Source of the DNA: Candidatus Auribacterota bacterium
GTDB taxonomy: Bacteria > Auribacterota > Tritonobacteria > UBA1439
Direction of reading: 5' to 3'
Assembly: GCA_026392035.1 (NCBI GenBank)
Contig: JAPLCX010000028.1
Span: 1-36,960 of the forward strand
Length of the DNA: 36,960 nucleotides
How positions within the stretch are numbered: the first letter of the stretch is position 1; each line of letters begins with the position of its first letter. The notes beneath the pieces were generated by a model. That model did no database searches, was not told the DNA's origin, and saw nothing but the letters and a program-made list of their open reading frames with translations. A program made the position numbers and the translations under genes. Positions 19,943-30,431 of this stretch are shown one piece after another.

Positions 19943-20040
19943 GCACGCAGATACACACAGATAAAATGCTAACTAAAAAATCATAATTAGGAACCAGTAA
20001 AAGTTTCTACATCCGTGTTAATCTGTGTTTATCTGTGGTT
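19943..20040. repeat. Degenerate ACACAGAT/ATCTGTG repeat pair
   Basis: The left part (19943-19965, GCACGCAGATACACACAGAT) is inverted against the right part (20011-20040, ATCCGTGTTAATCTGTGTTT onward). Each arm is a tandem of degenerate 10-11-bp units. It belongs to a family seen also at 20938-21038, 27240-27356, 28133-28195, 28626-28655 and 30276-30340. No gene is seen in the 19779-20093 gap between the divergent genes. Confidence 0.6.
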
Positions 20041-20900: not shown

Positions 20901-20937
20901 CGGACTTGGGAAGCATTGTGCAGATTAGAGATTGTGC

Positions 20938-21038
20938 CGCGGATGAACGCGGATGGAACCGCAGTTTAAAGTGTAAGGCTTAAAGTTTAGAGTGGGGGCA
21001 GTTGAAATCTGCGTCAATCCGCGCAGATCCGCGGCTGG
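20938..21038. repeat. Degenerate CCGCGGAT/ATCCGCG repeat tract
   Basis: GCCGCGGATGAACGCGGAT at the left and AATCTGCGTCAATCCGCGCA plus GATCCGCGGC at the right are inverted versions of the same unit. Between them (20963-20992) lies an AGTTTAAAGTGTAAGG tract similar to 7815-7862. It fills the gap between the phosphatase and deaminase genes. Confidence 0.6.
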
Positions 21039-21111
21039 TTCTCTCAATATAGTGCTCGCCCCCGCCGCCGCTTTCTGGTACAATTCGCGAAACTCGACCA
21101 GGACCGGGGCG

Positions 21112-24299: not shown

Positions 24300-25169
24300 A
24301 TGACGACTACACTGCCTAGTAGCGAGGAAATATTGCAGGCTATACGAACGTCGGCGAAAGCTCTTGGCCGCCCCCCTTCCCGTCGTGAGTTTAAGAGCCA
24401 CTCAGGCATGACTGAGTATCAAGTACTCAAGCATTTTCCGAGTTGGCGTGAGGCAGTGCGTGCCGCTGGTCTCGAACCGAACAGCACCAACCAGCCGCTT
24501 GATCCTGCTGTCCTTTTGGAAGACTGGGGCGAATATGTGCGGAAGTATCGCAGAATACCGACAAGAAACCAGTATCGAAGTGAAGGCACATATAGTGCTG
24601 GCGTATTCGATAGGAAAATAGGCACATGGTCTAGCATTCCTTCCAAGTTCCGTGCTTTTGCCGAAGGGCGTCCCGAGTGGGCTGACGTTGTTGCGCTCTT
24701 ACCGATTGAGGTAGCCCGCCCTCGATCTGGCGCCGTGTTTTCAATGACCCCAAGTACCACAGTGACCTCGCCATCCATATCTTCACAACATAAAAGACAT
24801 GCAAAGCTAGACGCTCGCCCAACTTATGGCAATCCGATTGATTTTCGCGGTCTTCGACATGAACCTGTTAATGAGGACGGTGTCGTATTTCTCTTTGGAA
24901 TGGTTGCGCGAGAGCTTGGGTACCTAGTTGAGGCGGTACAAGCTGGTTTTCCAGATTGCGAGGCAAAGAGACAAGTTGACGCAGGGAAGTGGCAACGCGT
25001 CCGCATAGAATTTGAGTTCGAGAGTAAAGCGTTCCGAGATCACGGACATTCTCTAGAAGGATGTGATGTAATCGTGTGTTGGAAGCATAACTGGCCTGAT
25101 TGTCCCCCTCATCTCGAAGTTGTTGAATTGAGTAACGTTATTAAATATCTTTCTGCGTCTGATGATTGA
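24300..25169 (+). CDS. Putative nuclease: HNH-associated repeats plus restriction-endonuclease-like domain
   Basis: A 289-residue protein. Residues about 10-55 and 65-115 are two copies of the homing-endonuclease-associated repeat (AxxLGRxPSxREF...FPSWREAVRAAG, then VRKYRRIPTRNQY...FDRKIGTWS). A Ser/Thr-rich linker follows. The C-terminal domain has DCEAKR, VRIEFEFESKAFRDHGH and GCDVIVCWKHNWPDCP, resembling a PD-(D/E)XK-type fold seen in restriction-like proteins. The Asp, Glu and Lys could form a nuclease site, but this is not certain. The frame extends to an ATG at 24159 with an unconvincing N-terminus, so the ATG at 24300 is preferred; neither has a clear ribosome-binding site. Last gene of the AT-richer island. 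Confidence 0.7.
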   Translation: MTTTLPSSEEILQAIRTSAKALGRPPSRREFKSHSGMTEYQVLKHFPSWREAVRAAGLEPNSTNQPLDPAVLLEDWGEYVRKYRRIPTRNQYRSEGTYSAGVFDRKIGTWSSIPSKFRAFAEGRPEWADVVALLPIEVARPRSGAVFSMTPSTTVTSPSISSQHKRHAKLDARPTYGNPIDFRGLRHEPVNEDGVVFLFGMVARELGYLVEAVQAGFPDCEAKRQVDAGKWQRVRIEFEFESKAFRDHGHSLEGCDVIVCWKHNWPDCPPHLEVVELSNVIKYLSASDD

Positions 25170-25210
25170 TTGTGTAAGCACGCGCTGCAGGTTGTCCCGG
25201 GTCCGCTGGA

Positions 25211-25228
25211 TCCCTGCTTTCGCAGGGA
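25211..25228. repeat. Hairpin repeat TCCCTGC...GCAGGGA
   Basis: TCCCTGC (25211-25217) and GCAGGGA (25222-25228) form a perfect 7-bp stem with loop TTTC, followed by TGACAAG. This CTGCTTTCGCAGGGATGACA phrase is a known type of dispersed repeat in bacterial genomes. It marks the right boundary of the island and lies between converging genes; no T-run follows, so terminator function is doubtful. Confidence 0.55.
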
Positions 25229-25262
25229 TGACAAGCGCGCTGAATGCCGGCTAACATGTGTA

Positions 25263-25625
25263 CTATCTCTTATTCCTAAATTGTTCCCAGAGCCGGCGGA
25301 AGCGGCTCTCGTAGATCATCTCGAAGAGCGCGAGCTTGTCGGGGAACAGCTCATGGCACTTATCCCTCACCCTGCTCTGGGCGATCTCGACGTCCACGTC
25401 GGGGAAGCGCTCATCGAGAATCATGCGGCAGACCTCGTCAGCCATCCTCCTCAACTCCTCGGCCTTTCGGGCGTCATCGGCGCTCGCGAGAATCCGTTCG
25501 ACGCTCCGGAACAGTTCCACGTGAGACTCGTCGATGACCGCGCCGCAGCCGCACGTCACCGTCCTCCCGAATTGGAAGATCGTGATATCGTACTGGCGCC
25601 CGCAGCGGGGGCAGGTCACTGCCAT
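25263..25625 (-). CDS. Zinc-ribbon protein with CpxC-like N-terminus, function unknown
   Basis: A 120-residue soluble protein. The N-terminus VTCPRCGRQYDITIF...VTCGCGAV has a CxxC and a CxC and probably binds zinc, resembling CpxC-type ribbons. Residues about 35-120 are charged helices (RSVERILASADDARKAEELR) without a motif I recognise. It starts 11 nt after the stop of the endonuclease III-like gene and is probably the last gene of the era unit. No ribosome-binding site is obvious. No function can be assigned. Confidence 0.65.
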   Translation of the reverse strand: MAVTCPRCGRQYDITIFQFGRTVTCGCGAVIDESHVELFRSVERILASADDARKAEELRRMADEVCRMILDERFPDVDVEIAQSRVRDKCHELFPDKLALFEMIYESRFRRLWEQFRNKR

Positions 25626-25636
25626 ACGTAATTCAA

Positions 25637-26344
25637 TTATCTATTGTCAGGTTTGAGCCGTTTGAATCGTTCGAACTGTTTGAGCAGTTTCAATGGCTTA
25701 AATCTCTTTAATAAAGGGCATAACTCACAGCGCGATGTCTTGCGGCAGAACTCCTTGCCCGCCCGCACGATCAGCGCGTGGAATTCGTTGTACAGCCTCA
25801 CGCTCTTTGGAATGCTTCCGGCGATGAAGCGTTGCACCTCATGGTATGAGGCATCCTCCGGAACGAGATTGTGCCGGCTGAATATCCGCGCGGTGTATGC
25901 GTCCACGACGAAGACCCGCCTGCCGAAGGCGTAGAGCAAGATGCTGTCCGCCGTCTCCGGCCCGATGCCGTGCACCGCGAGGAGCTTCCGGCGGAGTGCG
26001 GGGGTCCGCTCACGGGCCATGCGGCGCAGGCTTCCGCCGTACTCGTCGCGGAGAAAGTCCATGAACGCCTTGAGCTTGATGGCCTTCTGATTGAAATACC
26101 CCGAGGGCCTGACCAGCCGTGCGAGCGTCCGCCGGGGAGCGCCCGCCAGTCCCTTCACCGAAAGGAGGCGGGCTTTCTTGAGGTTTCTGATGGCCCGTTC
26201 GACGTTGCCCCACGCGGTGTTCTGTGTCAGGATAGCCCCCACGATGACCTCGATCGGGGTCTCGCCCGGCCACCAGTGCTGTGGGCCGAATATCCTGAAG
26301 AGTTCACGGTACATCTGCAGCATCACGTTCTTGTTTTTTGTCAC
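25637..26344 (-). CDS. Endonuclease III-related HhH-GPD DNA glycosylase (COG2231/HP0602 type)
   Basis: A base-excision-repair glycosylase-like protein of 235 residues. The helix-hairpin-helix LLAVHGIGPETADSILLYAF and the catalytic Asp in VVDAYT are clear. In E. coli Nth the corresponding loop is GVGRKTA with the lyase Lys120; here Glu occupies that place, as in monofunctional HP0602/MagIII-type enzymes. The C-terminal cluster motif retains CRKTSRCELC but the fourth Cys is absent: the last about 22 residues are encoded by a 9-bp tandem repeat. The GTG at 26344 overlaps the era stop as GTGA; an ATG at 26323 is an alternative. The domain assignment is firm; substrate (possibly alkylated purine) is inferred. 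Confidence 0.85.
   Translation of the reverse strand: MTKNKNVMLQMYRELFRIFGPQHWWPGETPIEVIVGAILTQNTAWGNVERAIRNLKKARLLSVKGLAGAPRRTLARLVRPSGYFNQKAIKLKAFMDFLRDEYGGSLRRMARERTPALRRKLLAVHGIGPETADSILLYAFGRRVFVVDAYTARIFSRHNLVPEDASYHEVQRFIAGSIPKSVRLYNEFHALIVRAGKEFCRKTSRCELCPLLKRFKPLKLLKQFERFKRLKPDNR
25652..25714. repeat. 9-bp tandem repeat forming the 3' end of the glycosylase gene
   Basis: Successive in-phase 9-mers TTTGAGCCG, TTTGAATCG, TTCGAACTG, TTTGAGCAG and TTTCAATGG, then degenerate CTTAAATCT and CTTTAATAA. Because 9 is a multiple of 3, the tract stays open in frame and encodes 3-residue periods such as PLK LLK QFE RFK RLK. It resembles intergenic GTTTGAACCG-type repeats of uncultured bacteria. 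Confidence 0.75.
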
Positions 26345-27219
26345 AGATCGTACCCGAGCTTCTTGAGCCGGAGCTCGTCCTTCTTCCAATCCTTGATGAC
26401 CTTCACCCTGAGGTCCAGGAATATTTTTTTGCCGAGAAACTCCTCGATATCCCTACGCGCCGCGCTGCCGATCCGCTTGATCATGCTCCCGCCCTTGCCG
26501 ACCAGGATGCCCTTCTGCGATTCCCGCTCGGCGATGATCGTGGCGCGAACGACGACGATGCCGTCATCCCGTTCCTCCATACCCTCCATCCTCACCGCGG
26601 TGCCGTAGGGGATCTCCTGGTGGGTGAAGCTAAAAACCTTTTCCCTGATCATCTCGCCCACCGCGAAGCGCGTCGGCTGGTCGGAGAGGAGGTCGTCGGG
26701 GAAGATCTTCTCGCCCTCGGGCAACTGCTCGAGCGTCTTCGCCAGGAGGAGCTCCACGTTCTCTCCGCCAAGGGCCGAGATGGGAATGATCTCTTTAAAG
26801 GGCAGGAGCTGCCGGTAGGAATCGATCACGGGGAGAATCTCCTGCCGAGGCACCGTATCCACCTTGTTGATGAGGAGGAACACGGGAGCCTTGCAGTCGC
26901 GGAGGAGGGCGATCGCCTCACGGTCCTCATCACTAACGCGCGCGGGTTCCACCATCAAGTACACGAGGTCGGCCTCTCCGAACGAGCGCCTTGCGCCACG
27001 CACCATATACCTCCCGAGAAAGTCGCGCGGGGTGTGGAGGCCGGGGGTGTCTATGAACACAATCTGCGCGTCGGCCGTCGTCAGAATTCCGCGTATCGGG
27101 TCGCGCGTCGTCTGGGGCTTGGGGGTGACGATGGCAAGTTTCTGCCCCACGAGCCGGTTGAGCAGTGTCGACTTGCCGGTGTTGGGTCTCCCGATGATGG
27201 CGACGAAGCCGAATTTCAT
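26341..27219 (-). CDS. era: GTPase Era
   Basis: Ribosome-assembly GTPase binding the 3' end of 16S rRNA; 292 residues, normal length. The G motifs are G1 GRPNTGKS (10-17), the switch QTTRD, G3 DTPG (57-60), G4 NKVD (118-121) and G5 SAL. The C-terminal KH domain has ILVGKGGSMIKRIGSAARRD and ends DELRLKKLGYDL, typical of Era. The ATG at 27219 starts at the family's normal position. Its stop overlaps the GTG of the endonuclease III-like gene. The upstream gap to trmJ (157 nt) holds only repeats. Confidence 0.97.
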   Translation of the reverse strand: MKFGFVAIIGRPNTGKSTLLNRLVGQKLAIVTPKPQTTRDPIRGILTTADAQIVFIDTPGLHTPRDFLGRYMVRGARRSFGEADLVYLMVEPARVSDEDREAIALLRDCKAPVFLLINKVDTVPRQEILPVIDSYRQLLPFKEIIPISALGGENVELLLAKTLEQLPEGEKIFPDDLLSDQPTRFAVGEMIREKVFSFTHQEIPYGTAVRMEGMEERDDGIVVVRATIIAERESQKGILVGKGGSMIKRIGSAARRDIEEFLGKKIFLDLRVKVIKDWKKDELRLKKLGYDL

Positions 27220-30247: not shown

Positions 30248-30431
30248 ACCACGGAGGACACAGAGTAAAGTTTAATATAGCTCGCCGCAGATTTGCGCGG
30301 ATTAATTCTCACCACAGATGAACACGGATACACACGGATCATTTCTTGTTCGAGAAACCAGAAACGAGAAACTGTTGTTGCCGTTGTAACAATCTCCGTG
30401 CTCTCCGTGACTTCTCCGTGCCTCCGTGGTG
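30248..30431. repeat. Inverted repeat with CACCACGGAGG ends and degenerate units inside
   Basis: CACCACGGAGG (30248-30258) and CCTCCGTGGTG (30421-30431) are perfect 11-bp inverted ends. Inside are CGCAGATTTGCGCGGATTAA and CACAGATGAACACGGATACA (about 30276-30340) and CTCCGTGCTCTCCGTGACTT units. It fills the entire pdxJ-nnrD gap and has no ORF of note, so it looks like a composite of the dispersed repeat family or a non-autonomous element. Confidence 0.6.

Follow-up and report, generated by a model that had tools for sequence, protein, structure and literature searches.

A dispersed 9-bp hairpin repeat apparently read as the C-terminal tail of a DNA glycosylase in a Candidatus Auribacterota bacterium

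In the portions of the literature available to us, three kinds of palindromic repeat come closest to the element considered here. REP elements of the GTAG and CGTC super-families (Di Nocera et al. 2013) are described there as dispersed palindromes with units of 20-40 bp, lying less than 20 bp from gene 3' ends; they supply stop codons and enter ORFs, many of them in replication and repair genes, and are thought to act as RNA elements, as terminator, attenuator or 3' end stabiliser (PMC3733652). Rickettsia palindromic elements (RPEs), of 105-146 bp with terminal inverted repeats and with kin in Wolbachia and Methanocaldococcus (PMC2229807; PMC2996958), are reported to lie inside conserved genes, where they are translated in frame and have neutral or slight effects (PMC2229807). 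PARCELs (Roske et al. 2010) are presented as repeat-coding palindromic DNA, patchy across phyla, with an amphipathic product; the protein domain that they encode has 25 residues and occurs in ORFs to which no function is assigned, many of these being membrane-targeted (PMC2996958).

The window, that is the whole stretch analysed, comprises 36,960 nucleotides of contig JAPLCX010000028.1 and carries a 9-bp-periodic element at the 3' end of a DNA glycosylase gene (Table 1). Its family resembles REP elements in being dispersed, palindromic and close to gene 3' ends, but differs in its arms of 9-bp direct repeats, in members that reach about 110 bp, and in lacking a GTAG or CGTC tag by eye (none was seen around the window copy, the other arrays having only been looked over). 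Because of this different build and the missing tag, we did not file the element as a tagged REP. With RPEs it would share the in-frame palindrome in conserved genes, as suggested by the tail in the window and by three tracts in a cas6-like gene of the far-related genome G129, whereas the hosts are others and the accessible parts of the two papers mention no 9-bp periodic arms for RPEs (PMC2229807; PMC2996958). Like PARCELs, it is repeat-coding palindromic DNA with an amphipathic product and a patchy spread across phyla; unlike them, it has three-residue periods and sits in housekeeping genes or spacers. A narrow literature search returned no paper on the GTTYRARYN repeat, which is not to claim that it is absent from print.

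Table 1. Features at the 3' end of the glycosylase gene and in its immediate surroundings (window coordinates).
Feature	Position	Strand	Basis
MagIII-like / COG2231-type HhH-GPD DNA glycosylase gene	25637..26323	-	ORF, profile searches, likely ATG 26323
Stop TAA and last codons (to D-N-R), behind the array	25637..25650	-	sequence, ORF
Imperfect hairpin of the array, 14+4+7 bp stem (25 bp), 3-nt loop	25649..25705	+	folding
Array of six 9-bp units GTTYRARYN, in register	25651..25703	.	fixed array rule
Codons of conserved cysteines C199, C205, C208 (C-x5-C-x2-C)	25718..25747	-	alignment A1
Downstream 120-aa gene (MAVTCPRCGRQYDI...), CxxC pairs	25263..25625	-	ORF
Upstream co-directional gene	26341..27219	-	ORF

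The open frame of the glycosylase gene extends further upstream of its likely start codon, and residue numbers refer to the 234-residue translation of 25640-26341, which begins six codons ahead of that start; the C-terminal end reads ...CRKTSRCELCPLLKRFKPLKLLKQFERFKRLKPDNR*, terminating at 25637. The product exceeds the Pfam cut-off for HhH-GPD (PF00730, 1.5e-14, 54.7 bits against 26.2) and stays below that of the NCBIfam 3-methyladenine DNA glycosylase equivalog (NF010494, 9e-30, 104.2 bits against 192), by which model it would be a relative of that enzyme and not an equivalog; the COG2231 label is one that we adopt from the initial annotation. Helicobacter pylori MagIII (1pu6) is the top PDB sequence match (6.6e-35) and stands, as does endonuclease III, near the top of the fold matches, with the difference that the window protein keeps C-x5-C-x2-C, the HMMER match stopping before that region. 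The AF2 model has a pLDDT of 89.9 and a confident core. Upstream lies what we take, by eye, to be an Era-like GTPase gene. The downstream gene, with its ATG 11 bp after the glycosylase stop, gave no Pfam match and occupies the same place beside the glycosylase in G001 and G002.

That the C-terminus is coded by in-phase 9-mers, as first annotated, holds: the array corresponds on the - strand to residues 213-231, the units behind the tail read TTTGAGCCG TTTGAATCG TTCGAACTG TTTGAGCAG on the + strand, and a three-unit pattern finds two matches in the window against none in 100 shuffles, so that the array is not a product of chance. Other details of that description needed revision. The tract does not begin directly after CELC but four residues past the last cysteine, behind CELC-PLLK, and in place of a plain 9-bp tandem repeat we find an imperfect hairpin. 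In the frame used here the unit is TTC AAA CNG, giving F-K-x; of the six ways to read the consensus unit only one runs into a stop, and since the period is nine the five others stay open.

Elsewhere in the genome the repeat is an intergenic one, in agreement with the initial annotation, and there it abuts gene 3' ends. Across the whole genome a strict form of the pattern matched 22 times against none for a reversed control, and a looser form 115 times against 3 for the reversed pattern; one fixed rule applied around the matches delimits 19 arrays, the window copy included. Many of these form long imperfect hairpins, with arms of 9-mers and short paired blocks interrupted by single mismatches. 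For five array segments the better strand reached z of -4.58 to -9.49, with 0 of 200 shuffles as good in each case, while the arrays L103 and L107 fold poorly. A plain slippage minisatellite is not favoured, the units being diverged and set out as two arms. As a raw count, uncorrected for spacer length, 15 of the 19 arrays overlap the 3' terminus of a called ORF or come within 15 bp of it; in three of these cases (L101, L102, L107) the ORF is doubtful by eye, and was flagged and kept in the count. Five Pfam-confirmed genes other than that of the glycosylase take their stop codon, with at most four codons, from an array, namely those of LpxB (L097), an MFS protein (L100), a MobA-like protein (L103), CysS (L104) and aconitase (L105), and the likewise Pfam-matched genes of EF-G and EF-P end 3 bp and 13 bp ahead of arrays. 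The glycosylase is the case where the frame entered contains no stop.

Proteins of the endonuclease III type with a [4Fe-4S] cluster carry the four-cysteine motif C-x6-C-x2-C-x5-C. The glycosylase does not conform to it, having C-x5-C-x2-C only, so that the first spacing is five residues and not the six initially given. The three cysteines are invariant in 16 of 16 rows of alignment A1, and the last conserved column among these rows is L210, which precedes the array start at residue 213; the suggestion that the repeat replaced a needed gene end thus finds no footing. The fourth cysteine, scored when within nine residues, is indeed absent, as had been observed, though the expectation that this family should possess it was misplaced: among 110 loci, counting the window, three cysteines are present in 93 and four in 15, while 2 show neither state. 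Three cysteines are also found in 74 of 80 relatives from named genomes, in 6 of 6 members of the window's family and in an Omnitrophota locus (L126) that groups next to this family in the tree. We therefore reject the loss of a fourth cysteine, or of a cluster ligand, through the repeat. A subgroup with three cysteines throughout, which the initial annotation had named as evidence to the contrary, is what the family itself presents, whereas in the wider set 15 of the 110 loci do have the fourth. On a quick tree of mostly weak support the three- and four-cysteine states change 13 times as against a mean of 14.2 for shuffled labels, 84 to 90 of 500 shuffles being as low. With a number so little below that of shuffled labels, the character would therefore be labile across the wider set; the tree appears to show no single loss event and only places the window within an all-three-cysteine group. 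From these comparisons the three-cysteine state is common in the subfamily and not universal, with no sign in the sequences that it is tied to the repeat here.

Among 108 loci, the tail after the last cysteine has a median of 13 and a maximum of 123 residues, and is at least 26 residues long in 11, the window among them. Tandem repeats of several unrelated units begin within the tail DNA in 11 of the 108 loci, again counting the window, whereas 20 shuffled sets averaged 2.0 such loci and never exceeded 5. Within the window's own family, G001 has another 9-periodic repeat tract after the glycosylase stop, and in G004 the glycosylase tail lies, by eye, inside a different inverted repeat. Given these two cases and the tail repeats of the relatives, the protein end of this glycosylase family is probably unconstrained and thereby a free landing place. 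Separately, an Omnitrophota locus (L115) has a long, near-perfect hairpin directly behind the glycosylase core, the strongest fold of the 108 tails (z -9.7).

Repeats of this build are met beyond this genome as well. A second repeat with a period of nine, YTTCAGTGN, matches 66 times in this genome and 77 times in G001, with 0 control matches; the copies looked at also make long hairpins, and the family is present in 9 of 192 genomes. The GTTTGARYN pattern likewise occurs in 9 of the 192: this genome has 40 matches, the far-related G129 has 56 and G134 has 7, and each of six others has 1 or 2. One of these six is G003, a member of the family, whose remaining four members gave no match. The G129 arrays adjoin gene ends, and its cas6-like gene (L203:1295-2218, Cas6 domains 7.4e-22) contains, in frame, three arrays of the GTTTGAAC type, of which the first and second correspond to extra residues relative to solved Cas6. 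In a 3-kb stretch of G129 (L202), the arrays at 356-399 and 2599-2650 are missing as units in G192 of the same genus (L229), where the flanking genes align, and at the third array place G192 holds unrelated sequence. This supports gain or loss of arrays as units in the G129 lineage, a comparison that speaks for that lineage and not for the window locus. At the two empty sites no clear target-site duplication was seen by eye. No mobilising enzyme was found for the arrays: Y1_Tnp matches occur in all 8 genomes searched, including those with 0-1 array pattern matches, and across these genomes the Y1 transposases do not appear to track the arrays. An ORF with a repeat-coded tail (L211) had no Pfam match and was left out of the evidence. 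The window itself has further repeat tracts: one at 30312-30431, intergenic and hairpin-like with 9- to 10-mers (CACGGAT... / CTCCGTG...), is of another family and the same build; one at 19945-20040, also intergenic and just upstream of a gene, consists of ACACAGAT / ATCTGTGTT repeats with inverted arms; and at 20927-21044 there is an inverted repeat of CGCGGAT-type units with 31-nt arms that are 74% complementary.

Identity, genome-wide family, hairpin fold and position of the element, as well as the three-cysteine context, are matters of observation. We consider it likely that the tract belongs to a dispersed family of REP-like hairpins and lies behind the conserved core, where an unconstrained tail is read through and tolerated. 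The element sits in the short spacer between the glycosylase core and the next gene, and ribosomes would read through it, appending an F/L-K-x basic tail that ends 11 bp before the next start. We infer the read-through because the unit, at 9 bp, spans three codons and is stop-free in the frame entered, and the tolerance because the protein end appears unconstrained in the family. The element itself would spread as DNA or RNA and not for the sake of the peptide. To judge from the sequence, the glycosylase core is untouched and the tail appears to be hairpin repeat read as protein. Weighing against this explanation are the weakness of the hairpin on the glycosylase's own mRNA strand, the outcome that neither a target-site duplication nor a mobilising enzyme was found, and the tail ranking among the most basic.

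A basic tail would be congruent with co-option, in which the repeat-coded F/L-K-x helix helps the glycosylase to bind DNA or a partner. The 26-residue tail has ten K/R against two D/E (net +8), second in basicity among the 108 loci, and AF2 predicts a helix at 216-228. The pLDDT of this helix is however only about 70, and the basic character follows from the unit in this frame, selection being unneeded; we thus regard co-option as unlikely. Slightly less likely still is that the operon retains the hairpin for an RNA function, as terminator, attenuator or 3' end stabiliser. On the + strand the hairpin reaches -26.3 kcal/mol (z -5.9, equalled by 0 of 200 shuffles), arrays of the family are situated at the 3' ends of genes, and a role of this kind has been proposed for REPs in the account available to us (PMC3733652). 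The transcribed strand of the operon, on the other hand, folds weakly (-10.9 kcal/mol, z -1.24, 22 of 200 shuffles as good), no intrinsic terminator was matched at the window array, and the better-folding strand has no consistent relation to the upstream gene among the other arrays; Rfam searches across 25100-26400 gave no family match up to E 1. The original proposal has an intergenic tandem repeat of 9 bp expanding into the gene and replacing its end together with the fourth Fe-S cysteine, with the cluster disabled or altered as a result. In its favour, the repeat overlaps the gene end and this cysteine is absent. It is nonetheless very improbable, as the conserved core stops ahead of the array, most loci and the entire family do without the fourth cysteine, and the tract, a hairpin with two arms, belongs to a dispersed family whose arrays, in G129 against a congener, are each present or missing as a unit.

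With the tract read as a copy of a dispersed hairpin element, the case appears to be one of a new repeat family with a behaviour already known, by analogy to published REP elements. More tentatively, and slightly short of an even chance in our estimate, there may be a class of hairpins with 9-bp arms comprising several families (GTTYRARYN, YTTCAGTGN and probably others), patchy in far-related bacteria, moving as units and repeatedly becoming protein tails or in-frame inserts because the period is a multiple of three.

The claim of a repair enzyme that lost an iron-sulfur ligand to a repeat falls away; the data raise the question of whether any cluster is bound at the three-cysteine site in this subfamily of glycosylases. 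We are left with a clear example of a palindromic DNA repeat that contributes sequence to a protein, in an uncultured lineage and with a frame-keeping period. Of greater interest than the glycosylase tail is the larger family of hairpin repeats that keep the frame, which raises the question of how far-related bacteria come to share the same 9-bp hairpin families.
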